Assembly (NCBI GenBank): GCA_030765065.1 | Contig: CM060978.1 | Location: 219,065,498 to 219,129,497, forward strand | Direction: 5' to 3' | Origin: Deroplatys truncata | Lineage: Eukaryota > Arthropoda > Insecta > Mantodea > Mantidae | Length of the DNA stretch: 64,000 nt | Shown here: one piece after another, positions 20,571 to 52,545 of the stretch | Layout of the letters: each line of letters opens with the position of its first letter | Position numbering within the stretch: position 1 is the first letter of the stretch | Translations under genes and position numbers: made by a program | Notes under the pieces: generated by a model | The model's input: only the letters and a program-made list of their open reading frames with translations | Database searches by the model: none | Told to the model about the DNA's origin: nothing

Positions 20571-20623
20571 ATTGCTAATGCCATTCAACTTTCATTTGTC
20601 TCTGATACATAAACAAATTGCAA

Positions 20624-25041: not shown

Positions 25042-25278
25042 AGGGTGGACCATTTAAGTTGAGGCTATACAATATATCCAAAACTAAGCGTTGTAGAAAG
25101 AAATGTCTTTAATAAAACTTGACTGATATTATGGCGAAAGTAAATGCTGCTAGTCGTATTTCGTTTGGAGGACGTAGTGAGGGTCATTTCAGGGTCTTTT
25201 TAAATGGGACCCTAATTGTAGGTTCCCATTTAAAAAAATAAATTGACCCAAAATGACCCTCATAACGGCCTCCAAACG
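25042..25278. repeat. imperfect ~120-bp hairpin at the inner edge of the right arm
   Basis: TTTCGTTTGGAGG...TGAGGGTCATTT...TTAAATGGGACC (25160-25212) is followed after 9 bases by GGTTCCCATTTAA...AATGACCCTCA...CCTCCAAACGAAA (25222-25281). It forms a long stem with few mismatches, ending where the inverted arm starts. Confidence 0.8.
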
Positions 25279-25880
25279 AAACCTACATTCCTCCTCCTTC
25301 AATCTCTGTCTATCCTTGTATCTCTCCTGTTTTCCATATTTCTCCCATATAAACGTATACTCTAATCCTCAAACCATGTCTAGACTAGCACCTCTCCTCG
25401 TATACCCTACGGCTCTCATATAAATGCATTTTCCTCTTGAAGACTCTCTCAACCTAGCACCTACCTTCGTTTTCCCTATATTTTCCCATATAGACGTATA
25501 CTCTCTCATTCAGACCTTCCCGACTAGCCTAGCACTTCTCCTCATATTCCCCTACCTCTCTCATATAAGATGCATTCCCTCATTCAACACAGTCTAGCCT
25601 AGCATCGACCCTCGTATTCCCTATCTCTCGCATATAAACGCCTACTCCATCATTCAAAACTCCTATCCTAATACCTCTCCTCGGTTTGCTATATCGCTCA
25701 TATTCTACCCTTCAAGTCCTGTTTAGTATAGCATCTTTCCTTGTGTTCCCTATCTCTCTCGTATAAAGCATATCCCTCCCTCCTTTAGCATCTGACTAGC
25801 CTAGCATCAGCCCTGGTATTCCCTATCTCTCCCCTATAAATACTTCTATCTAGAGACCTAATGTTTCAGGAGAGCATCCT
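25279..25880 (-). repeat. ~60-bp minisatellite (right arm)
   Basis: Inverse of 19421-20033, in the same order and nearly the same length. Confidence 0.85.
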
Positions 25881-28475
25881 TTCCCCTATAAAAGTTTATT
25901 TGGTGTCTTTATCTTAATTAGTTTAGGAGTTATTAAATTTATAATTAAATTACATTTTATCGGTATTCGAACCCTGGACACCAGAACCAATATTATTTAC
26001 AATATTAGTTTGATATGTTTAAGGGTGCTGTATGCATTTACAGCATCAATCTAAGTGATATATTCTAGAGTATAGAGAAAAATAAGTAAGTGATTGAAAG
26101 ATCGGGATTCGAAGTAAGGACAGCTGATTGAAAATTATATACAGTATTAATTGCCCCTCCTAGGAGCTATCAATCATGCTTTGGTCAATTCCTCTACCTC
26201 TCTTAGTTTCTGAGATAATGACGATTTAAACATTAGGCTCGAACCCAGAACGTCAAGTATCTAATTACACATCCACAAGATACTACCTAGTAACATAAAC
26301 GCAATAAAGTTTATTTAGCGTCTTTATCTTAATTAGTTTAGGAGTTATTAAATTTATAATTAAATTACATTTTATCGGTATTCGAACCCTGGACACCAGA
26401 AACAAAATTATTTACAATATTAGTTTGATATGTTTAAAGGTGCTGTATGCAGTTACAGCATCAATCTAAGTGATATGTTCTAGAGTATAGAGAAAACATA
26501 AGTAAGTGATTGAAAGATCGGGATTCGAAGTAAGGACAGCTGATTGAAAATTATATACAGTATTAATTGCCCCTCATAGGAGCTATCAATCATGCTTTGG
26601 TCAATTCCTCTAGCTCTCTTAGTTTCTGAGATAATGACGATTTAAACATTAGGCTCGAACCCAGAACGTCAGGGATCTAATTACACATCCACAAGATAAT
26701 ATCTAATAACGTAAAGACAACAAAGTTTATTTGGCGTCTTTATCTTAATTAGTTTAGAAGTTATTAAATTTATAATTAAACTACATTTTATCGGTATTCG
26801 AACCCTGGACACCAGAAACAAAAGTTATTTACAATATTAGTTTGATATGTTTAAAGGTGCTGTATACAGTTACAGCATCAATCTAAGTGATATATTCTAG
26901 AGTATAGAGAAAAATAAGTAAGTGATTGAAAGATCGGGATTCGAAGTAAGGACAGCTGATTGAAAATTATATACAGTATTAATTACCCCTCATAGGAGCT
27001 ATCAATCATGCTTTGGTTCACTCGTCTACCTCTCTTAGTTTCTGAGATAATGACGATTTAAAATTAGGATCGAACCCAGAACGTCAGGTATCTAATTACA
27101 CATCCACAAGATAGTACCTAATAACATAAAGACAATAAAGTTTATTTGGCGTCTTTATCTTAATTAGTTTAGAAGTTATTAAATTTATAATTAAACTACA
27201 TTTTATCGGTATTCGAACCCTGGACACCAGAAACAAAATTATTTACAATATTAGTTTGATATGTTTAAAGGTGCTGTATACAGTTACAGCATCAATCTAA
27301 GTGATATATTCTAGAGTATAGAGAAAAATAAGTAAGTGATTGAAAGATCGGGATTCGAAGTAAGGACAACTGATTGAAAATTATATACAGTATTAATTAC
27401 CCCTCATAGGACCTATCAATCATGCTTTGGTTCACTCGTCTACCTCTCTTAGTTTCTGAGATAATGACGATTTAAAATTAGGCTCGAACCCAGAACGTCA
27501 GGTATCTAATTACACATCCACAAGATAATACCTAATAACATAAAGGCAATAAAGTTTATTTGGCGTCTTTATCTTAATTAGTTTAGAAGTTATTAAATTT
27601 ATAATTAAACTACATTTTATCGGTATTCGAACCCTGGACACCAGAAACAAAATTATTTACAACATTAGTTTGATATGTTTAAAGGTGCTGTATACAGTTA
27701 CAGCATCAATCTAAGTGATATATTCTAGAGTATAGAGAAAAATAAGTAAGTGATTGAAAGATCGGGATTCGAAGTAAGGACAACTGATTGAAAATTATAT
27801 ACAGTATTAATTACCCCTTATAGGAGCTATCAATCATGCTTTGGTTCACTCGTCTACCTCTCTTAGTTTCTGAGATAATGACGATTTAAAATTAGGATCG
27901 AACCCAGAACGTCAGGTATCTAATTACACATCCACAAGATAGTACCTAATAATATAAAGACAATAAAGTTTATTTGGCGTCTTTATCTTAATTAGTTTAG
28001 AAGTTATTAAATTTATAATTAAATTACATTTTATCGGTATTCGAACCCTGGACACCAGAAACAAAATTATTTACAATATTAGTTTGATATGTTTAAAGGT
28101 TGTGTATTCAGTTACAGCATCAATCTAAGTGACATATTCTAGAGTATAGAGAAAAAATAAGTAAGTGATTGAAAGATCGGGATTCGAAATAAGGACAACT
28201 GATTAAAAATTATATACAGTATTATTTACCCATCATAGGAGCTATCAATCATGCTTTGGTCAATTCCTCTACCTCTCTTAGTTTCTGAGATAATGACGAT
28301 TTAAACATCAGGCTCGAACCCAGAACGTCAGGTATCTAATTACATCTCCACAAGATACTACCTAATAACATAAAGGCAATAAAGTTTATTTGACGTCTTT
28401 ATCTTAATTAGTTTAGGAGTTATTAAATTTATAATTAAATTACATTTTATCGGTATTCGAACCCTGGACACCATG
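25881..28475 (-). repeat. ~414-bp tandem repeats, 6 units plus partial (right arm)
   Basis: The inverse marker GGTATTCGAACCCTGGACACC ends at about 25982, 26397, 26813, 27228, 27642, 28056 and 28472 (periods 414-416). There are two more units than in the left arm. Confidence 0.9.
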
Positions 28476-29347
28476 TACCCAAATATACATTCACAAGAAA
28501 CTATCTAATGACATTAATGTAATAAACTTTATTTGATGTCTTTATCGTAATTAGTCTCTGAGTTATTAGAAGCTGAATTTGTAATCACTCCTAGATTCGA
28601 TTCCGGTCATTCTGGTCAACTTGGAATTCATTGGAGGAGCTGCTGCTTTTTATATCATTTCCATCGCTAAATATTGAAGTGTTGAGAGTTATGCAGAGCA
28701 CTTAGGAAAACAATTACTGACATTGTTCGCTAATGGGGTGAAAGCGTCTAACGGGTCAGCTAATGTGGGTCACCGTTACCTCCAGACGGAAGTATGTCGT
28801 TGATCGCTAATGTATGTAAACAGATCCGGAATGTAAACTTAAAAGCCTATTAATGTGTTGAAAGCGTCTAACATGTTCAGCTAATGGACAAGCGATTTCC
28901 CCAGATACAAGAAGGCTGCAGTGTTTCATTACATGACAGACTGTTACCGTGAGCAGACTACTTATACTCAAGCTCCAGTCAACAATTCATTAATCAAAAA
29001 ACTTAATTGCTCGAGGATGCAATCTGCAGACCTTAGTAATCATAAAAAAAATGTTTGACGAACATTACCTAATTAATTTGCCGAGGGGCAGCAGGACTCG
29101 AGAAAACAATTCCATCAAGTCATGACGCCACAGTAGAACGCATGGGGGAGGGGGTAGAACCTGTTAGCACAGATACTGCCGGCATTAGGTGAGCACACAA
29201 AGCGAGAGGGGGCGGGTCCTAACGACACGAGACCGGGCGGCAAATAGTAGCACACAAAGGGAGGGGGCGGGGCTAGCGGCATAGATCAAAGAACCTTATC
29301 AGATGGCGGCAAATCCTTTGTTTGAGAATCGGCATTCTTATTCTACT

Positions 29348-37850: not shown

Positions 37851-39120
37851 AAAACTACTTCAGCCCTTATACGAGTAGAACTTGAAAAATTCGATATGAA
37901 TTTGGTTATGTGGTGCCAAAATGCAATGCACAAAAATGTACAGAGGCTTCTCAATAAGCACACCCAGTTTGAATGTAACTTCTGGATTCTGTCGCCTGAT
38001 GCTCACATTAACTTACTGTCCTTTGTCATACACTCAGCTCAATTCACTTAATTGTCTGGGTTGCCAAAATGAGGTAATAAACGTTTTATTACGTAAGCAT
38101 ATTGCCAATGTTTTCGGTAATAATATTCAATTCATAAAGTCTATATGTTTTATGAATGTGCATAAGCAATAGGTATTCTTGAAGCACATCACACACATAT
38201 CCAAGATCTAGAGTACTTTCACTTCAATCCTAACACCAGGAGCAGGCGAACGAACCAAGTGTGTCATATACGTGTGGCAATGTATTATCACGCCTGCATA
38301 TATCAATCCAACGTAGTAAATAGCACCAGAGGTTCAAACGGCTGAATAAATTAATGAACTACACTTCATAATAACCTTCACATTAGATTTGTTTTCACAG
38401 CATGACATCTGATTAAAATAAGGATAGTTAATCTCTGGCTTTAACATAGAAAAAATCCGAAGCGGACGCTTTCCTATAAAAATTTTGCCCATATAAGAAA
38501 CCAACCTAGTATTAACCTAGAAGGAGGGTACTAAATTATGTTAAAATAGATGCCACAAGCACCGAATGTTGATCAAGTTAGCGGTGCACGTTAGATGTTA
38601 TTTATGAGGATGAAACAGCATACGAGAAGCACAAGCATTAATTTAACTTGTGTTAAACTGTAGGGCTAGGGAGGTATTAGCTGAAAGACCATCTCTTTAA
38701 TGAAATTGGTATATATCTGGATTTACTACCTAAGTCTGTTTTGAACTCGGTATAGAGATTAGAAGGGTAACTAAGTACTATTCGCGGTCGTATCACCCTT
38801 CTTCTCCTTTCAGGGTGTAAAATTACTTCACATGAGTATTATGTAACGATATCAAAAAATTTTATAAACTCCATCTTGTTTCTGTGCTCTCGCTCCGTCC
38901 CTCCTGCAAAAAAATCATTGCTTACTAGATAATAATAGTGAAGTTGAAAGTTAAACAGCACCTAAACCACCTGTTATGGTGTGTCTAAAGCTAACGTGAT
39001 TTAGATACTGTTTAGCACTAAACGTCGTTTTTGCAACGTGTTAAATATCGTCTTTATAAGCGACCCTGAAAGCCCAGCATATATTCCAAGCGTGTTCCCA
39101 AGACTGCATAGTATAGGGTA
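37851..39120. other. unassigned DNA
   Basis: No gene recognised in about 1.27 kb. Confidence 0.4.
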
Positions 39121-39775
39121 CTTCAACAAGAGTGTCCTATCTTTGAACTTAAATAAAACGCGTTCTATAAATGATAGAGGTTTATTTCTTTTTTTATTTT
39201 GGAACATAATTACTGCCATTACGTGTGGAAGAGAACAGTGACCGCTGCGACTTCGTTGGGTTGCGCGTATACGGTTGATCCAATTTTCAATGACAGAAGA
39301 ATGTAAATTAGGTCCAACTTCAAATAACAGGCGTGATGTTATTCATAAGAACATTTCCTGTTTCTGGCTTGTTGACATAAACTCGAGATTTAACATAACC
39401 CCACAAGAAGTAATCCAACGGCGTTAAATCACATGAACTTGGGGGGCCAGTTAACATCACCACCACGGAAAGTGATGAAATCTCTGAACTTCTCCTTCAA
39501 AAGGTAACAATTTGTAAAACTGTTTCGAGAGCAGTATGACATGTAGCACCATCTTGCTGGAACCAGATATTTCTGAGATCCATACCATCCAATAGAGGCA
39601 CAAATAGTCCCTTATAAGAGCCCGGATTCTTTCTCCATTGATAGTTAGAGCTTCTCCATCTTCATCTTGGAAAAATATGGACCAATGATTCCGCCATATC
39701 AAAATCCATACCACCCTGTAACCTTTTGGGGATAAAGTGCTCAGTAGGTTATATAAGACAGCCCGAGGCCACTTT
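39121..39775 (-). pseudogene. mariner-like (DUF4817 type) transposase, C-terminal half plus terminal repeat
   Basis: Minus-strand sequence in shifting frames gives GPYFFQDEDGEALTINGERI, DLRNIWFQQDGATCHTA (second catalytic Asp) and a degraded WPP.S.D-like segment. The element's end repeat CTTCAACAAGAGTGTCCTAT lies at 39121-39140, matched inversely at 52526-52545. The N-terminal half is 12 kb away at 52041-52439 in the same orientation. A palindrome therefore landed inside this transposon. About 40-50 codons of the middle are missing at the junction, so target DNA was lost. The gene is dead. Confidence 0.8.
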
Positions 39776-39778
39776 TTT

Positions 39779-40270
39779 GCGTTTATATGGGAAAAGATAG
39801 GGAAAACGAGGGTAGATGCTAGGCTAGGAGAGCATCCAAGGAGGAAAAATGCGTTTATATGGGGGAGATAGGGATTACGAGGAGAGTTGTCAGGCTAGAC
39901 AGGGTTGAAAGGGTAGAATGCACGTTTTATACTGAAGAGATAGGGATTACAAGGTTAGATGTCGATTAGACAGGGTTTGAAAGGTCGGAATATATGCTTT
40001 ATAAGGGAAAGGATAGGGAAAACGAGGGGAGATGCTAGGATAGACAGAGGTTGAAATAGGAGGAATGCGCTTTATATGAGAGTGGCAGGGAATACGAGGA
40101 GAAGTGCTAGGCTAGTCAGAGGTCGAGTAGAGTATACAATTATATACGAAAAATAGGGAGTAGATGATAATGCTAGACAGGTACTGAAGAAGGGGGAGTA
40201 TGCGTTTATATGAGGGAGATAGGGAATACGGGGAGAAATGCTAGGGAAGACAGGGACTGAAGGTATGTAG
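39779..40270 (+). repeat. ~60-bp minisatellite, left outer end
   Basis: About seven units of GCGTTTATATGGGGGAGATA, GGGAATACGAGG, aGATGCTAGGCTAGACAGGG form. Same unit as at 19421-20033. Confidence 0.85.
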
Positions 40271-41391
40271 GGTGTTTTTCCAGAAGGGAAGAGTAAGAAT
40301 TTCAGAGGTATTTAGAGCACAATATAACTATTTTAGAACACACTTAGAAGCTTTTTGGGCACATGTTTATCTAACTTTGCAGGTATGCTGACGATGTTTT
40401 AATGCGGTAGAACAGCCATTTGACATCCTCTTACTGGCTTTAAAATATTTTTAGACATAGATACAGATACGTGTTTTAGGGTATTGGTGTAAGCATTTTA
40501 GCCAGTGTACTAGGAATTGTGGAGCATTTTAGGGTTCATTTAGAGACATTTTAGGCACAGGTACAGATATTTTTTTGATATGAACAAGGCTTTCAGGACA
40601 TTCTGGTATGAGGCAGGGGAATTTTAGATGTTTCAGCAGCATTTTGGGAACTGGAGCAGCTAGATTCAGGGTATTTATATAGGCTTCAGAATATTTCGAG
40701 GTGTTTTATGATGCTTTTAAGGTATTTTGAAAATTTTCAAGACGTTTTCAAAGCTCGTGCTAGGAGTGTTTGTGGCTCTTTAAAGGTATTTTAGGTTATG
40801 GATGCGGCATAGGCACAGACCATTAAGAGTTCCTGAAGGGGCTTTTGGATAAGTGTAGTGACTGTTTTATTGGCTTTCGGCTAAGTGTAGTGGCTGTTTT
40901 TATGGAAGTTTGGAAAGTGCAGTGGCTATTTTTATGCCATTAGAGATTCTGGCGGGCCTTTTAGAAAGTGTAGCGGTTATTTTTATGCTATTGGCACATG
41001 GTTTTCAGACATTCTCTCTTGTTTATAGAATTTTTCTCTTGTATTACACAGGTCTTATGATCTATAATCATTTCTAACGTTTTTACTGTCATACCGGTTG
41101 CTTTTGAAGTCTTCTCAATATTCTAATGCTAACATGTAAGAAACTATGTAGAGATGTCTTTTATAACCCAACCTTAAGCTCTGTTAGTGATATTAATGTT
41201 CTATTCAGCTTTTCTGTTTTTGTATGGTTAATTGTTGTCTAGGTGTATCGTCTTTACCAGTTAATTGATGGTTTATTAGATAAGGGTTGTAAGGGCAGGT
41301 GCCTCTCCCCTTTTATCTAGGTTTGAGACTAGCACTAGGATTTGCTCCTAATGGCAGGGTTACCGCCTCCCTTCCACATTCTTATTTTTTA
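40271..41391. other. non-coding arm segment with recurrent TTTTAG words
   Basis: CATTTTAGG/A-like words recur irregularly at least eight times from 40310 to 40800. From 40850 to 40990 AAGTGTAGTGGCTGTTTTTATG-type units repeat three to four times. No frame is open. Mirrored at 50710-51830. Confidence 0.6.
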
Positions 41392-41397
41392 TTTATT
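41392..41397 (-). promoter_or_regulatory. candidate polyadenylation signal, left polymerase copy
   Basis: AATAAA on the minus strand about 100 bp past the stop codon, mirrored at 50704-50709. Confidence 0.5.
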
Positions 41398-41496
41398 CTT
41401 AGGTGTCTGCTAGATGTATACACAGCACAGGGATAAACTTCCACTTTTTAAAGTTGTAGACTCACGAGAAAATCATCATCTTAGGATTACATTCTC

Positions 41497-42618
41497 TTAA
41501 GCACTGCTTGTAATGCTGTAATGGCCATATGCATATGTCGTTATTCCATCCTCAGCAACAACTCTTTTATCGTCGTATGGAGTCAATGCAATTTGATTCA
41601 CTTGCACTGTGGTAACAGTATGCTTTCGTGACAGGATCAGATTCATGGGCGTCCTTATTATTTCTCTGGATTTAAGACAGTCTGTATAGCTGTCGAATGT
41701 GATGTGCTGCTTAATAGAGCCACGTTTTATACCTTTAATCTTTTTTATCATTGAGCCGTGGATATCTAGCGCACACAGCTTAGGTCGCAGTCCGACAAGG
41801 CGTTGGATGATTTTACCATTAGCCTCATCTTTAAATTTTCCAAGCACTTTCTTGTTTAGAGCTGAATAGCATATATGGTTTGCAGGATAATCAGCCGTAT
41901 CCAGATGCTCAAGAAAACGTAGCTTGTCCTTGTACACATCTTCAGTTGTAACTTGATGGATGAATGAATCAGTGTCCATATACATCAGCTTCAGGTTTTC
42001 AACTCCATAATGCGGTAACAACACATCATAATGATAGTGGTACATTAATGTCTTGGAGATGTCCAACACACTCATTCCAATGTATACAGGCTTGTTGAAC
42101 ACGATCTGTCGGGAGGCCATATGCACAGCAGCTAGATTGGTGGCATATATTGTTCGATCGATAAACGTAGGCTTTGCAATTAACTTTTCCAGTGTCTTCT
42201 CGTTTGTCACCAACCGTATATCCACACGATTACGAAGGTTCTCCATTGTTTTTCCAAACATAGCATTGTTGAACAGTTTGTAGAGATCCTTCTCAAAATC
42301 ATTTGCAGCCTTTTGTCGTAGTCTGTTGTTAAATTCCACATACGGTTTTAACCACTGTGACTGTCGGAATTGTAGCACACGATGGATTTTTATTAGTCGT
42401 AGTCCATGACTAAGAGCTTGCTTCAAAGTCATGTAATGCACTACATACTTCTTTCGTGATCCAAGGTGAGGAATTAACTTCTTTGTAGTCGAGTCCTTTG
42501 GTTTCAGACACTCAGGCAGGAATGGTAAATCATTATGCAAATCATGGAGTTCAGCAGGATACTCGATGTCAACTTCTAATATGTATCCATGAGGATCATC
42601 TCCTTCTAGTCTTTGCAA
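41497..42618 (-). CDS. DNA polymerase B, C-terminal palm/thumb segment (left copy)
   Basis: 373 codons from the first Met, open from about 42648. Contains the motif B-like NNAMFGKTMEN (residues 117-127), polymerase motif C LMYMDTDSF (YMDTDS at 213-218; the two Asp bind catalytic metal), and the C-terminal YDDKRVV..DGI.TYAYGH block common in Polinton-type and related arthropod elements. This is DNA_pol_B_2-like, protein-primed family B. Polymerase motif A lies in the upstream frame, cut off by TGA at 42649-42651, so this piece alone cannot be an active enzyme. It is the most intact C-terminus of the two copies. Confidence 0.85.
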   Translation of the reverse strand: MQRLEGDDPHGYILEVDIEYPAELHDLHNDLPFLPECLKPKDSTTKKLIPHLGSRKKYVVHYMTLKQALSHGLRLIKIHRVLQFRQSQWLKPYVEFNNRLRQKAANDFEKDLYKLFNNAMFGKTMENLRNRVDIRLVTNEKTLEKLIAKPTFIDRTIYATNLAAVHMASRQIVFNKPVYIGMSVLDISKTLMYHYHYDVLLPHYGVENLKLMYMDTDSFIHQVTTEDVYKDKLRFLEHLDTADYPANHICYSALNKKVLGKFKDEANGKIIQRLVGLRPKLCALDIHGSMIKKIKGIKRGSIKQHITFDSYTDCLKSREIIRTPMNLILSRKHTVTTVQVNQIALTPYDDKRVVAEDGITTYAYGHYSITSSA

Positions 42619-42717
42619 GTTTATTTCTTCAGGTGAAACCCACTGAAATCAACCAAAAGGAAGGGCGTGACACATTGCCCACCCATATTGGTTGTTGGCG
42701 TCCTCGTATGTGATGAA

Positions 42718-43926
42718 TTAGGTTGGTCTCGACGGATCAAACTTATCCATGTAAGTGTTATTAGCCTCTGCATACCGATGTGAAACTTGGCATAAACCTC
42801 CTCTTATGCCGGATTCTACCATGAGTAGTTGGTCATAATCTTGCAACAGTTCCAGTTCGATTCCAGTATACAGTAACATGGCGTCCCATGTAAGTCCTGG
42901 AGAGGTGAAATAATGTGCTGGATCAACTTTGTGCGTTTTGAGAGTTTGTTCTCTAAATGTCTCAAAGACATCAGCTAGAAGAAGAACATCCGAGGTTAAG
43001 TAGAGGTCACTGTATTCACCCAGGTTTCTCACATTGAACAGTCTCCATACATTTCTAGCATGTTCGTAGTCAGCATCACTAATTTCTTCTTCATTCAGTT
43101 TGTTGTAGAAGCAATTCTTAGGAGGCAGGCAGATCTCGTTCAAGACATCCCATGATGTGACGTAATCATTAGGAAATACACCCTTACGTGCCATCAACTT
43201 CAACTTGTCTTCTCCGAAGTACTTCAATGTTTCAGGATATGAGATTAGATTTTTTACCAGCTTATCCAAGCTTGTACTAAGGAACCGAAAGCTATCCACA
43301 AACCGGAGCTTTATATCTCCGACATACTTAGAGAATGAGATATAGCTTTCTTCAGAGTTAGGAATTACCTCCACACGTTCACTTGTACATCCCAACTCCT
43401 TAACAATGAAATGAGAGTCATATCCACTAAGGTTATGTATGAAGACAGGGATATATTTAGGCGTTTTACAGGCTAAATTGCATTCATTATGAAGACTTCC
43501 TCGGTATTCACCACTGATGTGATCATGATCGCGTACTTTGTAGTTCACTTCTGTAAAGGTTTTTCCACACAAGTAGCATACTGTAGAGGCATTGAAATCC
43601 ATCTGCTGTTGATCTGTAAGTTTCAGGGGCATGACAGATTTGTATATATTATTAATCTCCTTTGCAAGGAATGACAGGTATTCCATAAACTTCTGAGCAG
43701 CATCAACACCACGATGTACATAGGGATGCTTAGGAAGACCAGTTTCCAGATGTTCAACGCTGGTTGATGGTTTAACGTAAACACAGAAGCTCATTGCTGT
43801 GTGCTCTTGATAAGGGGTTGTATAGGAAGTTTCAGGACTGGGAATACACGTATGACATGGAGTGAGAAGGCTTTCAAAGTCTGCGTAGATGACGTAAGGT
43901 AGTTTCAAAATTTTTAAACTGTACAA
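42718..43926 (-). CDS. DNA polymerase B, exonuclease segment (left copy)
   Basis: 402-codon frame overlapping the upstream frame by about 50 bp. Exonuclease motif I YADFES at residues 14-19; a CYLCGKTF...RDHDHISGEYRG...HNECNL zinc/HNH-like block (about 117-151), seen in many Polinton-type polymerases; exonuclease II HNLSGYDSHFI (about 162-172); and the LGEYSDLYLTSDVLLLADVF exonuclease III region. It ends at TAA 42718-42720, where the other arm has CAA, just before polymerase motif A. A second stop (TGA, 42649-42651) follows. Confidence 0.85.
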   Translation of the reverse strand: MYSLKILKLPYVIYADFESLLTPCHTCIPSPETSYTTPYQEHTAMSFCVYVKPSTSVEHLETGLPKHPYVHRGVDAAQKFMEYLSFLAKEINNIYKSVMPLKLTDQQQMDFNASTVCYLCGKTFTEVNYKVRDHDHISGEYRGSLHNECNLACKTPKYIPVFIHNLSGYDSHFIVKELGCTSERVEVIPNSEESYISFSKYVGDIKLRFVDSFRFLSTSLDKLVKNLISYPETLKYFGEDKLKLMARKGVFPNDYVTSWDVLNEICLPPKNCFYNKLNEEEISDADYEHARNVWRLFNVRNLGEYSDLYLTSDVLLLADVFETFREQTLKTHKVDPAHYFTSPGLTWDAMLLYTGIELELLQDYDQLLMVESGIRGGLCQVSHRYAEANNTYMDKFDPSRPT

Positions 43927-45142
43927 TTGATTTCTCCTTTGTAGGCATAACTACCCTTGCAACACCATGCTGATTACAGATGGATGCATGTTCTTGCAGC
44001 TTTTCCAATCCACTTCGTCCATACTGATTGTCAAAGTGAGTAAAGCACCGCTTGCAGGTATATATCACTCCATCATGCTTAGTTTTCTGACGTCGAACGA
44101 GCTTCTCAAAATTCTTGATATATACATAGTGATGTTTTCCACTACTGTCACTCAATAGTAGGAGGTCACGGTGGTCAGGTAGCTCAGTGTCAGCAACCTT
44201 TATCGGATACACTTCATGTTTCTCATCCAGCCCGAAAACGTTGATAGACATCCTATTAAGCTTCTCAAATTTAGGTATTTGAGAAAGTGGAGTATGATAG
44301 GAAACGCAGCTGAAGTCGTACTTATCTTGAAGCTGTTTGTATTTACTGACGCGTTGAGGCTTGGTGCTGACGAATTTGGCCAATACAGAATATATAAAAC
44401 ATTGCTCATCCTTATAGTTTTGGACGTTAATGCAAGCTTCTTTAGCTCCAACAGATGGAGGTAGGGGTATGCAGCTACTGCCTCGTAAGGGGTTGTACTT
44501 GTTAATACGAAGGCGCACCCCTTCCACAGCAAGCAGAGCCCAGTTGCTTCCCTTTAGTTGTGACTCCTCCATTTCAGTAACCAACTTCTTCATTTTCGTT
44601 TCCAGCATAGAGTCCAGATCCGTTTCTAAGAAAGCAGCTTGATTCCGTGTTTTAAATGTTTTGTCACAGGTTTCTCCGATACTGTTTACAAATCGGCATT
44701 CAACCAGCAGATTAATTTTCACACTCTTGTGAATACCAAGCTCTTTATGCACTGCCTGGATTATTCGTTGTTTAGCCTCATGCAGGTACATATTCAGGTC
44801 CTTAGATGAATCGCATCGTATAAAATACGATTTCAATCGTCCTTCGAACGCTGTCTCGTATTCTTTCATGTCACAGTCCTCCATTGTGGATAATATGTGA
44901 TGTTTGGTAGGCTCCAATCTGCTTTTCTTCTGAGGACTGCTTATTTCACATACGTCTTCGTGCCGCTGTCCCTTATAACCATCATTAAAGGTTACATTAC
45001 AATGTTTACATTTGAAGAGTCTCCTACAGGTCATCTGATGTCTTCTCTTGTCATAACTTCGGAGGAATTCCTTTCTACATTTACTACAAGCGTATCCAGT
45101 AGCGCTTGGAATAATATCCTTATACGCTGAGTTATTCATCAT
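43874..45142 (-). CDS. DNA polymerase B, N-terminal zinc-finger region (left copy)
   Basis: 422 codons. Two C-x2-C...H-x4-C fingers at residues about 19-39 (CSKCRKEF) and 45-65 (CKHCNVTF), a DEQCFIYSVLA block near 250, and HYVYIKNFEKL followed by a third finger (CKRCFTHF...HASIC) near 345-390. This order is typical of the N-terminal extension in insect Polinton-type polymerases. The next segment lies in another frame: a 1-base difference around 43903-43906 ends this frame at LRHLRRL, and the same shift is present in the other arm. TATA box 150-160 bp upstream. Confidence 0.8.
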   Translation of the reverse strand: MMNNSAYKDIIPSATGYACSKCRKEFLRSYDKRRHQMTCRRLFKCKHCNVTFNDGYKGQRHEDVCEISSPQKKSRLEPTKHHILSTMEDCDMKEYETAFEGRLKSYFIRCDSSKDLNMYLHEAKQRIIQAVHKELGIHKSVKINLLVECRFVNSIGETCDKTFKTRNQAAFLETDLDSMLETKMKKLVTEMEESQLKGSNWALLAVEGVRLRINKYNPLRGSSCIPLPPSVGAKEACINVQNYKDEQCFIYSVLAKFVSTKPQRVSKYKQLQDKYDFSCVSYHTPLSQIPKFEKLNRMSINVFGLDEKHEVYPIKVADTELPDHRDLLLLSDSSGKHHYVYIKNFEKLVRRQKTKHDGVIYTCKRCFTHFDNQYGRSGLEKLQEHASICNQHGVARVVMPTKEKSIVQFKNFETTLRHLRRL

Positions 45143-45298
45143 TATTCTTGATGCAATAACGTATTAATCCTTCTTCAAGCGAAATGTAGACCTCCTCACC
45201 TTGATAACACTTTATAAAGCTGATTATTCTTGGAGAGAACACGATGTTAACACCGCAAGACTAATTAGCGCAATGAAGTCCAGTGTCAGCGGTCACCC

Positions 45299-45306
45299 TA
45301 TTTATA
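45299..45306 (-). promoter_or_regulatory. TATA box, left polymerase copy
   Basis: TATAAATA on the minus strand, about 157 bp upstream of the ATG, mirrored exactly at 46795-46802. Confidence 0.6.
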
Positions 45307-45463
45307 GAGGGAGCACGAACCTTTTAGATCAATTATATACTGAATTTTAATAATAAAACGATGATTAAGCGTCTAAACTCTTATATCTCAATACGTTACA
45401 CAGGTATTCGGGCGTTTCCGTAGGTGTTCGAACATGTTCGTGTGTTTGGAGAGGTGCTCGAAT

Positions 45464-46637
45464 GTGTTGTGTATGTGTGTGTCTGTGTGTGTGTTTTGAA
45501 CTGTCTCGGGGTGTGTATGTCTGTGTGTATGTCTGTGCGTGTCTGTGTGTGTCTGTGTGTGTATATGTCTGTGTGTATGTCTGTGTATGTCTTTGTGTGT
45601 CTTTGTGTGTATGTCTGATTTGTGTGTGTGTCTGAGTGTGTATATCTGTGCGTGTCTGTGTGTGTGTCTGTGTGTGTCTGTGTGTGTATATGTCTGTGTG
45701 TGTATTTCTGTGTGTGTATGTCTGTGTGTGTGTCTGTGTGTGTGTCTGTGTGTGTCTGTGTGTGTGTGAGTCTGTGTGTGTATGTTTGTGTGTGTGTTTC
45801 TGTGTGTGTATGTCTGTGTGTGTGTCTGTGTGTGTGTTTTGAACTGTCTCGGGGTGTGTATGTCTATGTGTGACATACACACATACAGACATATACACAC
45901 AGACACACACAGACACGCACAGACATACACAAAAACATACACATACAGACATACACACAGACATACACACCCCGAGACAGTTCAAAACACACACACAGAC
46001 ACACACAGACATACACACACAGATACACACAGACTCACACACAGGCATACACACACACCCAGACACACACAGACTCAAACACACACAGACACACACGGAC
46101 ATACACACACAGACATACACACACAGACATATACACACAGACACACACAGACACACACAGACATGCCCAGATATACACACACAGACACACACACAAAACA
46201 GACGTATACACATACAGACATATACACACAGACACACACAGACACGCACAGACATACACACAGACATACACACATAGACATAGACACCCCGAGACAGTTC
46301 AAAACACACACACAGACACACACACAGACATACACACACAGAAACACACACACAAACATACACACACAGACTCACACACACACAGACACACACACAGACA
46401 CACACACAGACATACACACACAGAAATACACACACAGACATATACACACACAGACACACACACAGAAACGCACAGATATACACACTCAGACACACACACA
46501 AATCAGACATACACACAGACATATACACACACAGACACAAACAGACACGCACAGACATACACACAGACATACGCACAGACATACACACCCCGAGACAGTT
46601 CAAAACACACACACACAGACACACACATACACAACAC
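45464..46637. repeat. GT/CA microsatellite core of the palindrome
   Basis: GT/CTGT-type repeats to 45872, then CA/CAGA-type from 45873, so the strand bias flips at one point. Islands of CCCCGAGACAGTTCAAAAC occur at about 45970, 46287 and 46590, and inverted at about 45493 and 45837, dividing the core into ~310-345-bp blocks: two on the left, three on the right. Long open frames here (455 codons minus, 309 plus) are low-complexity CVCV/HTHT runs, not genes. Confidence 0.9.
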
Positions 46638-46794
46638 ATTCGAGCACCTCTCCAAACACACGAACATGTTCGAACACCTACGGAAACGCCCGAATACCTG
46701 TGTAACGTATTGAGATATAAGAGTTTAGACACTTAATCATCGTTTTATTATTAAAATTCAGTATATAATTGATCTAAAAGGTTCGTGCTCCCTC

Positions 46795-46802
46795 TATAAA
46801 TA
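46795..46802 (+). promoter_or_regulatory. TATA box, right polymerase copy
   Basis: TATAAATA followed 20-40 bases later by CACTGGACTTCATTG. The ATG is at 46959. Confidence 0.6.
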
Positions 46803-46958
46803 GGGTGACCGCTGACACTGGACTTCATTGCGCTAATTAGTCTTGCGGTGTTAACATCGTGTTCTCTCCAAGAATAATCAGCTTTATAAAGTGTTATCAA
46901 GGTGAGGAGGTCTACATTTCGCTTGAAGAAGGATTAATACGTTATTGCATCAAGAATA

Positions 46959-48227
46959 ATGATGAATAACTCAGCGTATAAGGATATTATTCCAAGCGCT
47001 ACTGGATACGCTTGTAGTAAATGTAGAAAGGAATTCCTCCGAAGTTATGACAAGAGAAGACATCAGATGACCTGTAGGAGACTCTTCAAATGTAAACATT
47101 GTAATGTAACCTTTAATGATGGTTATAAGGGACAGCGGCACGAAGACGTATGTGAAATAAGCAGTCCTCAGAAGAAAAGCAGATTGGAGCCTACCAAACA
47201 TCACATATTATCCACAATGGAGGACTGTGACATGAAAGAATACGAGACAGCGTTCGAAGGACGATTGAAATCGTATTTTATACGATGCGATTCATCTAAG
47301 GACCTGAATATGTACCTGCATGAGGCTAAACAACGAATAATCCAGGCAGTGCATAAAGAGCTTGGTATTCACAAGAGTGTGAAAATTAATCTGCTGGTTG
47401 AATGCCGATTTGTAAACAGTATCGGAGAAACCTGTGACAAAACATTTAAAACACGGAATCAAGCTGCTTTCTTAGAAACGGATCTGGACTCTATGCTGGA
47501 AACGAAAATGAAGAAGTTGGTTACTGAAATGGAGGAGTCACAACTAAAGGGAAGCAACTGGGCTCTGCTTGCTGTGGAAGGGGTGCGCCTTGGTATTAAC
47601 AAGTACAACCCCTTACGAGGCAGTAGCTGCATACCCCTACCTCCATCTGTTGGAGCTAAAGAAGCTTGCATTAACGTCCAAAACTATAAGAATGAGCAAT
47701 GTTTTATATATTCTGTATTGGCCAAATTCGTCAGCACCAAGCCTCAACGCGTCAGTAAATACAAACAGCTTCAAGATAAGTACGACTTCAGCTGCGTTTC
47801 CTATCCTACTCCACTTTCTCAAATACCTAAATTTGAGAAGCTTAATAGGATGTCTATCAACGTTTTCGGGCTGGATGAGAAACATGAAGTGTATCCAATA
47901 AAGGTTGCTGACACTGAGCTACCTGACCACCGTGACCTCCTACTATTGAGTGACAGTAGTGGAAAACATCACTATGTATATATCAAGAATTTTGAGAAGC
48001 TCGTTCGACGTCAGAAAACTAAGCATGATGGAGTGATATATACCTGCAAGCGGTGCTTTACTCACTTTGACAATCAGTATGGACGAAGTGGATTGGAAAA
48101 GCTGCAAGAACATGCATCCATCTGTAATCAGCATGGTGTTGCAAGGGTAGTTATGCCTACAAAGGAGAAATCAATTGTACAGTTTAAAAATTTTGAAACT
48201 ACCTTACGTCATCTACGCAGACTTTGA
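46959..48227 (+). CDS. DNA polymerase B, N-terminal zinc-finger region (right copy)
   Basis: 422 codons, matching the left copy except for a few substitutions (for example Arg to Gly, Asp to Asn and His to Pro in the middle third). Same three zinc-finger-like motifs and the same end. The frame closes at 48227 because of the shared 1-base shift near 48195-48198. The equal length of the two copies, with only missense changes, suggests a recent origin or gene conversion. Confidence 0.8.
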   Translation: MMNNSAYKDIIPSATGYACSKCRKEFLRSYDKRRHQMTCRRLFKCKHCNVTFNDGYKGQRHEDVCEISSPQKKSRLEPTKHHILSTMEDCDMKEYETAFEGRLKSYFIRCDSSKDLNMYLHEAKQRIIQAVHKELGIHKSVKINLLVECRFVNSIGETCDKTFKTRNQAAFLETDLDSMLETKMKKLVTEMEESQLKGSNWALLAVEGVRLGINKYNPLRGSSCIPLPPSVGAKEACINVQNYKNEQCFIYSVLAKFVSTKPQRVSKYKQLQDKYDFSCVSYPTPLSQIPKFEKLNRMSINVFGLDEKHEVYPIKVADTELPDHRDLLLLSDSSGKHHYVYIKNFEKLVRRQKTKHDGVIYTCKRCFTHFDNQYGRSGLEKLQEHASICNQHGVARVVMPTKEKSIVQFKNFETTLRHLRRL

Positions 48228-49539
48228 AAGCCTTCTCACTCCATGTCATACGTGTATTCCCAGTCCTGAAACTTCCTATACAACCCCTTATCAAGAGCAC
48301 ACAGCAATGAGCTTCTGTGTTTACGTTAAACCATCAACCAGCGTTGAACATCTGGAAACTGGTCTTCCTAAGCATCCCTATGTACATCGTGGTGTTGATG
48401 CTGCTCAGAAGTTTATGGAATACCTGTCATTCCTTGCAAAGGAGATTAATAATATATACAAATCTGTCATGCCCCTGAAACTTACAGATCAACAGCAGAT
48501 GGATTTCAATGCCTCTACAGTATGCTACTTGTGTGGAAAAACCTTTACAGAAGTGAACTACAAAGTACGCGATCATGATCACATCAGTGGTGAATACCGA
48601 GGAAGTCTTCATAATGAATGCAATTTAGCCTGTAAAACGCCTAAATATATCCCTGTCTTCATACATAACCTTAGTGGATATGACTCTCATTTCATTGTTA
48701 AGGAGTTGGGATGTACAAGTGAACGTGTGGAGGTAATTCCTAACTCTGAAGAAAGCTATATCTCATTCTCTAAGTATGTCGGAGATATAAAGCTCCGGTT
48801 TGTGGATAGCTTTCGGTTCCTTAGTACAAGCTTGGATAAGCTGGTAAAAAATCTAATCTCATATCCTGAAACATTGAAGTACTTCGGAGAAGACAAGTTG
48901 AAGTTGATGGCACGTAAGGGTGTATTTCCCTATGATTACGTCACATCATGGGATGTCTTGAACGAGATCTGCCTGCCTCCTAAGAATTGCTTCTACAACA
49001 AACTGAATGAAGAAGAAATTAGTGATGCTGACTACGAACATGCTAGAAATGTATGGAGACTGTTCAATGTGAGAAACCTGGGTGAATACAGTGACCTCTA
49101 CTTAACCTCGGATGTTCTTCTTCTAGCTGATGTCTTTGAGACATTTAGAGAACAAACTCTCAAAACGCACAAAGTTGATCCAGCACATTATTTCACCTCT
49201 CCAGGACTTACATGGGACGCCATGTTACTGTATACTGGAATCGAACTGGAACTGTTGCAAGATTATGACCAACTACTCATGGTAGAATCCGGCATAAGAG
49301 GAGGTTTATGCCAAGTTTCACATCGGTATGCAGAGGCTAATAACACTTACATGGATAAGTTCGATCCGTCGAGACCAACCCAATTCAGCACATACGAGGA
49401 CGCCAACAACCAATATGGGTGGGCAATGTGTCACGCCCTTCCTTTTGGTGGATTTCAGTGGGTTTCACCTGAAGAAATAAACTTGCAAAGACTAGAAGGA
49501 GATGATCCTCATGGATACATATTAGAAGTTGACATCTAG
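48175..49539 (+). CDS. DNA polymerase B, exonuclease plus motif A segment (right copy)
   Basis: 454 codons: exonuclease I YADFES (14-19), zinc/HNH-like block, HNLSGYDSHFI, YLTSDVLLLADVF, and polymerase motif A DANNQYGWAM (about 409-418), the first catalytic Asp of the palm. It ends at TAG 49537-49539, where the left arm has GAG. It extends 52 codons beyond the left counterpart. The overlap with the upstream frame is 53 bp; the Met at the start is an artefact of frame opening, and natural translation would need the upstream frame. Confidence 0.85.
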   Translation: MYSLKILKLPYVIYADFESLLTPCHTCIPSPETSYTTPYQEHTAMSFCVYVKPSTSVEHLETGLPKHPYVHRGVDAAQKFMEYLSFLAKEINNIYKSVMPLKLTDQQQMDFNASTVCYLCGKTFTEVNYKVRDHDHISGEYRGSLHNECNLACKTPKYIPVFIHNLSGYDSHFIVKELGCTSERVEVIPNSEESYISFSKYVGDIKLRFVDSFRFLSTSLDKLVKNLISYPETLKYFGEDKLKLMARKGVFPYDYVTSWDVLNEICLPPKNCFYNKLNEEEISDADYEHARNVWRLFNVRNLGEYSDLYLTSDVLLLADVFETFREQTLKTHKVDPAHYFTSPGLTWDAMLLYTGIELELLQDYDQLLMVESGIRGGLCQVSHRYAEANNTYMDKFDPSRPTQFSTYEDANNQYGWAMCHALPFGGFQWVSPEEINLQRLEGDDPHGYILEVDI

Positions 49540-49721
49540 TATCCTGCTGAACTCCATGATTTGCATAATGATTTACCATTCCTGCCTGAGTGTCTGAAAC
49601 CAAAGGACTCGACTACAAAGAAGTTAATTCCTCACCTTGGATCACGAAAGAAGTATGTAGTGCATTACATGACTTTGAAGCAAGCTCTTAGTCATGGACT
49701 ACGACTAATAAAATTCATCGT
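49540..49721 (+). pseudogene. DNA polymerase B, short segment between stop and frameshift (right copy)
   Basis: Same frame as the preceding segment after the TAG. It encodes the HNDLPFLPECLKPKD...HYMTLKQAL region between motifs A and B. It is broken by a 1-bp deletion around 49709-49714 relative to the left arm. Confidence 0.75.
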
Positions 49722-50390
49722 GTGCTACAATTCCGACAGTCACAGTGGTTAAAACCGTATGTGGAATTTAACAACAGACTACGACAAAAGGCTGCAAATG
49801 ATTTTGAGAAGGATCTCTACAAACTGTTCAACAATGCTATGTTTGGAAAAACAATGGAGAACCTTCGTAATCGTGTGGATATACGGTTGGTGACAAACGA
49901 GAAGACACTGGAAAAGTTAATTGCAAAGCCTACGTTTATCGATCGAACAACATATGCCACCAATCTAGCTGCTGTGCATATGGCCTCCCGACAGATCGTG
50001 TTCAACAAGCCTATATACATTGGAATGTGTGTGTTGGACATCTCCAAGACATTAATGTACCACTATCATTATGATGTGTTGTTACCGCATTATGGAGTTG
50101 AAAACCTGAAGCTGATGTATATGGACACTGATTCATTCATCCATCAAGTTACAACTGAAGATGTGTACAAGGACAAGCTACGTTTTCTTGAGCATCTGGA
50201 TACGGCTGATTATCCTGCAAACCATATATGCTATTCAGCTCTAAACAAGAAAGTGCTTGGAAAATTTAAAGATGAGGCTAATGGTAAAATCATCCAACGC
50301 TTTGTCGGACTGCGACCTAAGATGTATGCGCTAGATATCCACGGCTCAATGATAAAAAAGATTAAAGGTAATAAAACGTGGCTCTATTAA
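49722..50390 (+). CDS. DNA polymerase B, palm segment with motif C (right copy)
   Basis: 222 codons with NNAMFGKTMEN and LMYMDTDSF (catalytic Asp pair present). The frame is lost at a 1-bp insertion near 50369-50372. The C-terminal YDDKRVV..GITTYAYGHY block follows in the next frame to 50604, with an extra TGA at about 50471. This copy thus carries a nonsense codon, a deletion, an insertion and a second stop that the left copy lacks, while the left has two stops of its own. Confidence 0.85.
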   Translation: MLQFRQSQWLKPYVEFNNRLRQKAANDFEKDLYKLFNNAMFGKTMENLRNRVDIRLVTNEKTLEKLIAKPTFIDRTTYATNLAAVHMASRQIVFNKPIYIGMCVLDISKTLMYHYHYDVLLPHYGVENLKLMYMDTDSFIHQVTTEDVYKDKLRFLEHLDTADYPANHICYSALNKKVLGKFKDEANGKIIQRFVGLRPKMYALDIHGSMIKKIKGNKTWLY

Positions 50391-50604
50391 GCAGCACATC
50401 ACATTCGACAGCTATACAGACTGTCTTAAATCCAGAGAAATAATAAGGACGCCCATGAATCTGATCCTGTGACGAAAGCATACTGTTACCACAGTGCAAG
50501 TGAATCAAATTGCATTGACTCCATACGACGACAAAAGAGTTGTTGCTGAGGATGGAATAACGACATATGCATATGGCCATTACAGCATTACAAGCAGTGC
50601 TTAA
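50391..50604 (+). pseudogene. DNA polymerase B, C-terminal tail (right copy)
   Basis: In-frame remains of KQHITFDSYTDCLKSREI, a TGA, then VNQIALTPYDDKRVV..AYGHYSI. The stop is at the position mirrored in the left arm. Confidence 0.75.
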
Positions 50605-50703
50605 GAGAATGTAATCCTAAGATGATGATTTTCTCGTGAGTCTACAACTTTAAAAAGTGGAAGTTTATCCCTGTGCTGTGTATACATCTAGCAGACACCT
50701 AAG

Positions 50704-50709
50704 AATAAA
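50704..50709 (+). promoter_or_regulatory. candidate polyadenylation signal, right polymerase copy
   Basis: AATAAA about 100 bp past the stop. Confidence 0.5.
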
Positions 50710-51830
50710 TAAAAAATAAGAATGTGGAAGGGAGGCGGTAACCCTGCCATTAGGAGCAAATCCTAGTGCTAGTCTCAAACCTAGATAAAAGGGGAGAGGC
50801 ACCTGCCCTTACAACCCTTATCTAATAAACCATCAATTAACTGGTAAAGACGATACACCTAGACAACAATTAACCATACAAAAACAGAAAAGCTGAATAG
50901 AACATTAATATCACTAACAGAGCTTAAGGTTGGGTTATAAAAGACATCTCTACATAGTTTCTTACATGTTAGCATTAGAATATTGAGAAGACTTCAAAAG
51001 CAACCGGTATGACAGTAAAAACGTTAGAATTGATTATAGATCATAAGACCTGTGTAATACAAGAGAAAAATTCTATAAACAAGAGAGAATGTCTGAAAAC
51101 CATGTGCCAATAGCATAAAAATAACCGCTACACTTTCTAAAAGGCCCGCCAGAATCTCTAATGGCATAAAAATAGCCACTGCACTTTCCAAACTTCCATA
51201 AAAACAGCCACTACACTTAGCCGAAAGCCAATAAAACAGTCACTACACTTATCCAAAAGCCCCTTCAGGAACTCTTAATGGTCTGTGCCTATGCCGCATC
51301 CATAACCTAAAATACCTTTAAAGAGCCACAAACACTCCTAGCACGAGCTTTGAAAACGTCTTGAAAATTTTCAAAATACCTTAAAAGCATCATAAAACAC
51401 CTCGAAATATTCTGAAGCCTATATAAATACCCTGAATCTAGCTGCTCCAGTTCCCAAAATGCTGCTGAAACATCTAAAATTCCCCTGCCTCATACCAGAA
51501 TGTCCTGAAAGCCTTGTTCATATCAAAAAAATATCTGTACCTGTGCCTAAAATGTCTCTAAATGAACCCTAAAATGCTCCACAATTCCTAGTACACTGGC
51601 TAAAATGCTTACACCAATACCCTAAAACACGTATCTGTATCTATGTCTAAAAATATTTTAAAGCCAGTAAGAGGATGTCAAATGGCTGTTCTACCGCATT
51701 AAAACATCGTCAGCATACCTGCAAAGTTAGATAAACATGTGCCCAAAAAGTTTCTAAGTGTGTTCTAAAATAGTTATATTGTGCTCTAAATACCTCTGAA
51801 ATTCTTACTCTTCCCTTCTGGAAAAACACC
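50710..51830. other. non-coding arm segment (mirror of 40271-41391)
   Basis: Inverse copy with the same CTAAAA-word recurrence. No gene. Confidence 0.6.
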
Positions 51831-52040
51831 CTACATACCTTCAGTCCCTGTCTTCCCTAGCATTTCTCCCCGTATTCCCTATCTCCCTCATATAAACGCA
51901 TACTCCCCCTTCTTCAGTACCTGTCTAGCATTATCATCTGCTCCCTATTTTTCGTATATAATTGTATACTCTACTCGACCTCTGACTAGCCCAGCACTTC
52001 TCCTCGTATTCCCTGCCACTCTCATATAAAGCGCATTCCT
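51831..52040 (-). repeat. ~60-bp minisatellite, right outer end
   Basis: Three to four units, inverse of 40061-40270. It stops abruptly at the mariner junction. Confidence 0.85.
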
Positions 52041-52545
52041 TGAACGGCGCAACCAATGGTCGTTGGGCTTTAGTTCTTGAGTTATCACCATTTTGTAAGC
52101 GTGAAACTTCAAGTCCAGATGCAGAATTCGCCAAGTTGTGGTCGGCGAAAGCCCCAATTCTTGTGCTCGACGAGCAATTGATTTGTTTCCGTTCTCGCGT
52201 ACACTCTCACGAACGGCGCCTAAGTTTTCGTTGGAGCGCTTACGTCGATTACGTACAGGTGTTCTTTGATCGCTGACAGAACCACTTCTTTCAAATTTAT
52301 CGATCAAACGCCGAATCGTTCTCTTGCCGGAACGATTATGCACACCGTAAGCTTCACGCAAGTTTTGGCGAACAGATGATCCATTTTGATAATAAATTTT
52401 CACATTTTCTGTGCGTTGCTGAATGCTGTAACTTTCCATGACTATTTATCAATAACAACTGTAACCACATGAAGAAAAATTACTGCTGAAACTCAATAAC
52501 AACGGCAGCTATCACATGTTAAAGATAGGACACTCTTGTTGAAAG
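52041..52545 (-). pseudogene. mariner-like (DUF4817 type) transposase, N-terminal half plus terminal repeat
   Basis: ATG at 52439. 133 codons carry two helix-turn-helix units (VKIYYQNGSSVRQNLREAYG...RTIRRLIDKFE; ARRAQELGLSPTTTWRIL), then TQELKPNDHWLRRS, where the frame runs into the minisatellite of the palindrome. The open frame continues to 51945 through foreign sequence. The end repeat lies at 52521-52545. The other half is at 39121-39775. One extra glycine-like gap region (REAYG) is shorter than in relatives. No frameshift is seen in this half, unlike the other. Confidence 0.85.

Follow-up and report, generated by a model that had tools for sequence, protein, structure and literature searches.

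The mantis Deroplatys truncata carries a mariner that is interrupted by two inverted, nearly identical arms, each with a broken DNA polymerase B (PolB) gene, and the question is whether this structure (element B) is an isolated accident of one chromosome or the genome of a mobile element. To our knowledge, Polinton replication in animals has been inferred from gene content and never directly watched. The original prediction, made from the letters alone, saw in the locus a fold-back product that came from the part of a larger element near its polymerase and had been captured at a break. The window analysed here is a stretch of 64,000 nucleotides (contig CM060978.1, positions 219,065,498 to 219,129,497), and its features are collected in Table 1.

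Table 1. Features of the window (positions within the window; TSD, target-site duplication).
Feature	Position	Strand	Description
Element A, second palindromic Polinton-like element, no PolB	16795..29347	.	ends AGTAG...CTACT, TSD GAAAGG
Mariner, C-terminal side, up to the left end of element B	39109..39742	-	87% to L024 3858-4488
Palindromic Polinton-derived element B, right end truncated	39743..52040	.	terminus on left side only
Left arm, terminus to microsatellite	39743..45872	.	inverted match to right arm
Subterminal repeats, about 72 bp	39782..40255	+	about 70% related to the repeats of element A
Broken PolB gene, left arm	41497..45163	-	open pieces 45163-43874, 43950-42718, 42648-41497 (stop-to-stop frames)
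11-bp deletion site, left arm	43902..43903	.	counterpart in right arm near 48199
Microsatellite core	45463..46638	.	TG-rich 45463-45872, CA-rich 45873-46638 (Tandem Repeats Finder)
Right arm, without the terminal 318 bp	46269..52040	.	inverted match to left arm
Broken PolB gene, right arm	46938..50604	+	open pieces 46938-48227, 48151-49539, 49692-50390; far end is the mirror of 41497
Mariner, N-terminal side, beyond the truncated right end	52044..52528	-	87% to L024 4646-5115

The inverted arms are as evenly matched as had been predicted. Segments 40061-45462 and 46639-52040 are 5,402 bp each and align over 5,403 columns with 25 mismatches and 2 gap columns. Extended into the microsatellite (40061-45872 against 46269-52040), the arms are 98.6% identical over 5,817 columns. 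The left arm reaches 318 bp further out than the right one, which stops at 52040, so that 39743-40060 is found in the left arm alone. This additional part starts with the terminus AGTAGGTTATATAAGACAG (AGTAG, at 39743), the same sequence as at the ends of other B copies. Both outer ends had been thought to lack termini; this holds for the right arm, which is cut, but not for the left one, whose terminus is complete. The flanks are indeed the two halves of one mariner, with a DUF4817 domain match within 51945-52442 on the N-terminal side, and 157 bp are absent between the halves in comparison with the L024 mariner copy.

The PolB genes of both arms are of the Polinton type and read outward from the core, in agreement with the original prediction. 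In the domain scan, pieces of the left arm match DNA_pol_B_2 (3e-11 and 4.9e-10) and Endonuclease VII (2.9e-06), and the right-arm piece 48151-49536 matches DNA_pol_B_2 (7.7e-13). For the complete 1,225-aa frame from a different copy, Endonuclease VII is the sole domain reported and DNA_pol_B_2 is absent, which we guess to be an effect of HMMER's filters. PolB is open across 1,225 codons in four of the eight arms surveyed. Between deeper lineages, the dN/dS values are 0.13, 0.15, 0.15, 0.25 and 0.37 (five comparisons, four of them within 0.13-0.25), and the polymerase thus shows purifying selection. Among close copies dN/dS is near 1 (1.08 and 1.35), so selection is visible between the deeper lineages only. 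With one PolB piece as query, viral_contigs gave no relative, and no match was found among solved structures.

B forms a family of dispersed palindromes whose ends are of the Polinton type. Two genome searches with the 40 best-scored matches each give a union of at least 45 loci. The search for other inverted dimers, which the original prediction had suggested, was productive: 22 of these at least 45 loci have two matches forming a mirror-oriented polymerase pair (12 pairs among the 40 matches listed in one search and 14 among 40 in the other), always in the same mutual orientation. An inner-arm probe gives 15 pairs among the 40 matches listed. As controls, the polB of an ordinary Polinton gives no pair within 25 kb among 40 listed matches, and its integrase region gives none among 40 listed matches as read by eye. 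Both ends could be read in 15 elements besides the copy in the window, whose right end is gone. They have the ends AGTAG...CTACT and a 6-bp TSD, perfect in 13 of the 15 and with 5 of 6 bp in the other two. Since target duplications surround these relatives, the palindrome is the mobile unit and integrates as a whole. Each genome of B is a full palindrome of two inverted arms, each with an outer Polinton-type terminus and one PolB, around a short core.

At 23 of the 45 loci a single polymerase match appears among the matches listed. Inspection of four of them revealed a palindrome at C16:374M, a shortened second arm in the C13 and C7 copies and a cut-off element at C16:237M, where by inspection the sequence beyond the break holds short ORFs only and no recognised gene. 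An element at C16:227.8M has a 99% B-type terminus without PolB at the expected place; a stretch free of long ORFs is found there instead, which itself forms 18 mirror pairs among 40 listed matches. Among the four inspected loci and the C16:227.8M element there is thus no monomeric parent of B. In the one ordinary Polinton that was compared, the orientation of PolB relative to the near end is opposite to that in B, with 27-47% identity by piece. Given both results, the predicted derivation of the arms from the polymerase side of a larger Polinton is unsupported. Searched with tblastn, the integrase ORF (rve, 1.1e-08) from one of the genome's ordinary Polintons matches neither the window copy nor any of 22 loci from ten further B copies. 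The same is true there for seven further non-PolB ORFs of that Polinton (a DJR capsid piece, an ATPase, a phospholipase-like ORF and four unassigned ones), although a diverged gene could escape such a search.

The two arms of one copy are mutual closest relatives in all seven copies with both arms read, and the 11-bp deletion of the window copy, present in its two arms, agrees with this. Private states common to both arms (56) outnumber those in one arm (38), and the latter come mostly from two older residents, W with 18 and C1a with 16. In recently moved lineages the both-arm to one-arm counts are 15 to 1 (C1b), 9 to 2 (C16b) and 4 to 0 (C14). C1b and C16b are palindromic through the axis, and the cores of C9, C5 and C16c measure 1,068, 1,068 and 1,157 bp. 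The asymmetric 1,068-bp core is 99.7% alike in two copies at different sites, and must therefore be inherited. The idea that B folded repeatedly, each time at another axis, was considered and dropped, as a perfect palindrome of the C1b type yields the C9/C5, C14, C16b and window cores via central deletions. With all B cores derivable from one such ancestor, repeated de novo folding within the family is unproven.

Ordinary Polintons are present in the same genome alongside the B palindromes, and some of the capsid-bearing ones have also turned into palindromes. A capsid search gave 126 matches with three inverted pairs, those at C16:687M and C4:95M among them, palindromic where read, and the remaining matches are unpaired. 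The arms of these palindromes are 99.9-100% alike where read, in comparison with 97.6-98.1% between pairs. One of them is flanked on both sides by a perfect 6-bp TSD (CATGCT); for the pair at C4:95M, the ends were not located within the 301-bp pieces examined. Three palindromes among otherwise unpaired matches fit an origin of dimers from a monomer during replication.

Taken together, B is probably a self-complementary, snapback-type Polinton derivative, which would rely on its own PolB for copying and on integration in trans. In its origin, the strand displaced in protein-primed replication would have folded back and then been copied; the fold-back product of the original prediction (by hairpin or template switch) is still the best guess here, but as the founder of a dispersed family with TSDs and not as a one-off event. 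Any single strand of the palindrome could fold into an arm-length hairpin whose open end would offer a double-stranded origin for a new start by PolB, and the palindrome may persist because its single strands fold in this way. Pairing of the arms in the hairpin, followed by repair or copying, would render them identical in each cycle, while the unpaired core would remain asymmetric. Because the B copies read have no integrase, we assume that the integrase of ordinary Polintons acts in trans. More tentatively, and with only a modest chance of being right, the palindrome may be a stable lifestyle: between insertions B would take the form of a giant hairpin that its own PolB copies, with the arms homogenised each cycle, and capsid-half palindromes of ordinary Polintons would circulate alongside, so that polymerase-only and capsid-only forms may complement each other like a divided genome.

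A different account needs no hairpin step in replication. A single old inversion or fold-back would have been followed by ordinary transposition, with chromosomal gene conversion keeping the nearby arms alike. The derivation of the different cores from one axis is in its favour, and arm-to-arm conversion is known in chromosomal palindromes. However, the older-looking residents W and C1a retain their one-arm states, so conversion within the chromosome is not fast, whereas the recently moved C1b, C16b and C14 have shared private states and few one-arm ones. The capsid palindromes show in addition that dimers formed in another Polinton lineage too. We consider this account unlikely, though it is the most probable of the rivals.

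The remaining accounts concern the locus itself. The right junction, a deletion without terminus, would suit a lone fold-back piece of a larger Polinton, captured when the mariner suffered a double-strand break, but the left terminus is intact, and the dispersed mirror pairs with 6-bp TSDs around the relatives refute capture as a full account; it is very improbable. An assembly echo or sequencing hairpin artefact might be considered, as some library protocols are known to produce palindromes. The 25 substitutions between the arms, their open frames broken at different positions (as the original prediction had stressed) and the other copies' own flanks with target duplications make its probability negligible, although an 11-bp deletion is common to both arms of the window and missing from 12 arms of eight other copies in alignments spanning the site. 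Equally hard to believe is that two separate Polinton insertions adjoin by chance in opposite orientation: the two halves of each B pair have one common outer target duplication, and chance would place about 0.09 pairs of the 126 capsid matches within 25 kb of each other, against the three found, all inverted and with nearly identical arms.

The snapback-type derivative preferred here has partial counterparts in known systems. Like B, foldback-type transposons such as Galileo have inverted repeats of great length that contain tandem repeats. Galileo has a P-like transposase and a target-duplication length other than 6 bp, whereas B has Polinton ends, PolB and 6-bp TSDs, and no transposase domain in the scanned arm pieces. 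Adenovirus replicates by protein priming, its displaced strand is able to fold back into a panhandle and palindromic defective genomes are formed; these are laboratory or virion products, in contrast to the heritable genomic family of B. With Polintons (Mavericks), B has in common a PolB of the DNA_pol_B_2 family, AGT-rich ends, 6-bp TSDs and a length of about 15-16 kb. Intact vertebrate Mavericks are described as 12.7-24.6 kb long, with 6-bp TSDs and (AGT)2//(ACT)2 or (AG)3//(CT)3 ends (PMC8097293). Their terminal repeats are given there as 46-1,447 bp, whereas the inverted repeat of B spans the whole arm (>6 kb), and the palindromic PolB copies read have PolB twice and no integrase, capsid or ATPase homologue. 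Snapback genomes of AAV are described as self-complementary and replicated with helper functions; either half of the genome can give rise to them, and they are symmetric or, where a loop stays unpaired, asymmetric (PMC8235507). B is likewise self-complementary with a symmetric centre (C1b, C16b) or an asymmetric core (C9, C5, C16c). AAV, however, is a parvovirus with hairpin ends and Rep, while B has PolB and presumably protein-primed replication; the AAV snapbacks in that source are particles in a virus population, and B consists of dispersed genomic insertions with TSDs. Among the results listed by literature searches, with many subscription papers and bioRxiv outside their coverage, no paper describes palindromic Polintons.

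Integrated palindromes with TSDs preserve replication products like fossils, and as such would document both the formation of snapback dimers and their acceptance by Polinton-type integration. B would be the case of a dimer that gave rise to a successful family whose polymerase is under selection. In each copy, the two arms serve as an age clock, like the paired LTRs of a retrotransposon, and the family opens the hairpin model of Polinton replication to direct tests. For annotation it is a warning that a terminal inverted repeat may equal the entire element. Whole-genome palindromes with a doubled PolB, together with the capsid palindromes, hint at the copying mode of such elements.

Element A, the second palindrome of the window, has 414-bp arrays in its outer arms and a 21-bp array in its core. 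Its relative L039 has 95-98% identity, and its terminal repeat is also found on the capsid palindrome at C10:54.2M.

In the window, two inverted arms that are 98.6% identical form the palindromic Polinton-derived element B. Each arm measures 5,402 bp before the microsatellite begins, as the original prediction of equal arms implied, and their alignment contains 25 mismatches and 2 gap columns. Pieces of a Polinton-type DNA polymerase B (PolB) gene (DNA_pol_B_2, Endonuclease VII) are found in both arms. The predicted layout is likewise observed: each arm carries one broken gene reading outward, and the flanks are two halves of a single mariner. This mariner lacks 157 bp relative to the mariner copy in another fetched stretch (L024). 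The left arm extends 318 bp past its paired part, to 39743. Both outer ends had been thought to lack termini, but the left end is complete, because other copies end at this same position. A single deletion across the right junction would explain why the right arm is 318 bp short and why part of the mariner is absent.

Element B has many relatives in the 4.29-Gb eukaryotic genome to which the window belongs. Among 40 scored matches listed (6,072 first-look candidates), the window PolB probe gives 12 pairs in opposite orientation, 5.7-9.0 kb apart. A PolB probe from another B lineage gives 14 such inverted pairs among 40 matches listed, and an inner-arm probe gives 15 pairs among 40 listed. The union of both PolB probes comprises at least 45 loci, at least 22 of them with two matches. 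As controls, polB of an ordinary Polinton of the same genome gives no pair within 25 kb among 40 matches listed, and its integrase region, read by eye, none among 40 listed. Inspection of four single-match loci revealed a palindrome at one, a second arm of reduced length at two and a cut-off element at the last. In the place of PolB, an arm stretch without a long ORF is found in L060, in an element whose ends are 99% B-type; it is assigned to a PolB-less palindromic family because it gives 18 mirror pairs among 40 matches listed.

Coordinates, ends and target duplications (numbers alone are window positions; others are contig label:position)
Feature	Position	Ends	Target duplication	Remark
B, left arm, paired	40061-45872
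B, right arm, paired	46269-52040
B, subterminal repeats	39782-40255
A, subterminal repeats	19470-20035
Element A	16795-29347	AGTAG...CTACT	GAAAGG
B copy C9		AGTAG...CTACT	gacatg	perfect
B copy C5		AGTAG...CTACT	cacatc	perfect
B copy C1b		AGTAG...CTACT	gacaat	perfect
B copy C16b		AGTAG...CTATT	GACGCT	perfect
B copies C1a, C14		AGTAG...CTACT		5/6 matching
L060, PolB-less arm	C16:227769500-227770700
B-type element	C2:279626927-279633154			6.2 kb
B-type element	C10:743060-755226			12.2 kb
DJR capsid inverted pairs	C4:95.17M, C10:54.2M, C16:687.83M			mirror-identical surroundings

Six further B copies, 15.2-15.9 kb long, were retrieved piecewise, and only the right end of C16b departs from the common termini. 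A terminus search gave 13 end pairs, of which 2 were already fetched, 2 were left out for lack of a match starting at the first base and 9 were read; the duplication is perfect in all nine. These nine elements were selected by their ends and not by PolB: at least the one at C7:274.9M has a PolB pair, while those at C16:227.8M and C16:403.9M carry PolB-less arms. Two others, at C2:279.6M and C10:0.74M, have common flanks and count as one site. In total, the duplications are perfect in 13 of 15 elements and carry one mismatch in 2 of 15; therefore the entire palindrome is the unit of integration. The C2 and C10 elements are B-type, lie in opposite orientation and have the same duplication, which reflects either duplication of the locus or a target repeat common to the two.

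An intact PolB frame of 1,225 codons is present in 4 of the 8 arms surveyed (C14 right, both C16b arms and C16:237M). A single stop interrupts the frame in the left arm of C14, and the frame is broken in the right arm of C1a and in the two arms of window B. The dN/dS values between deeper lineages are low (0.13, 0.15, 0.15, 0.25 and 0.37; C1b against C9, 0.14), whereas they are 0.72-1.35 between close copies or the two arms of one copy, so PolB is selected in the B lineage and copies decay once inserted. An ordinary Polinton supplied eight ORFs other than PolB, among them integrase, capsid and ATPase; a search of 25 targets, including window B and loci from ten further B copies, found no homologue of any of them.

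The dimer could be folded anew in every cycle or passed on as a dimer. C1b and C16b are palindromic through the axis. C9 and C5 have a common asymmetric core of 1,068 bp, 99.7% alike and in opposite genomic orientation, which shows that the dimer is passed on in dimeric form and is not refolded in every cycle. The core of C16c, another copy, is 1,157 bp. Central deletions of the C1b form can yield the other cores, so one ancestral axis is sufficient for B.

The two arms of a copy could be homogenised in the chromosome or during replication. Left and right arms are sisters in all seven copies with both arms read, in a tree built from 16 arm segments (2.3 kb each). Two pairs are identical, and support is strong in C16b, C1a and C1b and moderate in the window (94/90) and C5 (93/87). 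In the window, the two arms are about as distant from each other (0.70%) as from the closest of the other copies (0.65%). Copy-private states are common to both arms in 56 cases and confined to one arm in 38, 34 of the latter in the window and C1a; the ratios are 15 to 1 in C1b, 9 to 2 in C16b and 4 to 0 in C14. Both arms of the window copy carry an 11-bp deletion that breaks the PolB frame, and 12 arms from 8 other copies with alignments spanning the site lack it; the two arms did not acquire it independently. Arm differences thus accumulate in resident copies and are absent or common to both arms in recently moved ones, which points to homogenisation at replication rather than in the chromosome.

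We infer a snapback or hairpin mechanism for the Polinton-derived element B; the observation in the original prediction is confirmed and its interpretation supported in part. The following hairpin scheme is most likely at work. During protein-primed replication a single strand would be displaced, and a displaced palindrome strand would fold into a hairpin of one-arm length with a double-stranded origin at its open end. PolB could start again from this origin and run round the loop, restoring the palindrome. Mismatches of the paired arms would be repaired or copied away, and those of unpaired cores would not. With integrase in trans, this cycle would account for arm identity, inherited asymmetric cores, the kept PolB and full ends, and the loss of all other content. 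Among described systems, snapback genomes of adeno-associated virus come closest; an excerpt of PMC8235507 describes them as symmetric, or asymmetric with a loop, and as coming from either genome half. Terminal repeats of vertebrate Mavericks, 46-1,447 bp in an excerpt of PMC8097293, are far shorter than the whole-arm repeats of B. Our literature search found nothing on palindromic Polintons, which is weak evidence of absence.

Ordinary Polinton genes give 38 Pox_A32 ATPase and 126 DJR capsid matches in the genome; these elements also carry a phospholipase-like protein, rve integrase and PolB. In the ordinary Polinton examined, PolB is 27-47% identical to that of B by piece and is turned the opposite way with respect to the closer end. 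The 126 capsid matches include three inverted pairs, and no others, within 25 kb (chance expectation 0.09), at unequal spacings of 9.4, 11.9 and 22.3 kb. In the stretches adjoining the capsid genes, which the reading covered, sequences on the inner and the outer side of the genes mirror at 99.9-100% in 3/3 pairs and match at 97.6-98.1% between pairs. Both ends of the C10:54.2M pair are located, 16.4 kb apart, with CATGCT on each side; ends of the C4 pair were not found within the pieces read. Thus, dimers have formed in at least one further Polinton lineage. Ordinary Polinton matches crowd on C16, which makes up 707 of the 4,290 Mb, with 28/40 polB and 24/40 integrase matches listed; for the palindromic PolB probe it is 9/40.

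The terminal repeat of the C10:54.2M palindrome is that of element A, the second palindromic element of the window, which is Polinton-like. Element A has arms with 414-bp arrays, a core with a 21-bp array and no PolB. Its terminus probe gives 16 pairs among 40 matches listed; taken alone, this demonstrates no more than inverted ends. A relative lies at C5:135.6M, where the 9 kb read match at 95-98%; aatggc flanks it on either side when the end is taken 1 bp outside the probe. By eye, element A is inserted in an apparent LINE reverse transcriptase. The subterminal ~72-bp repeats of B and A are ~70% alike, though the rest of the arms differs.
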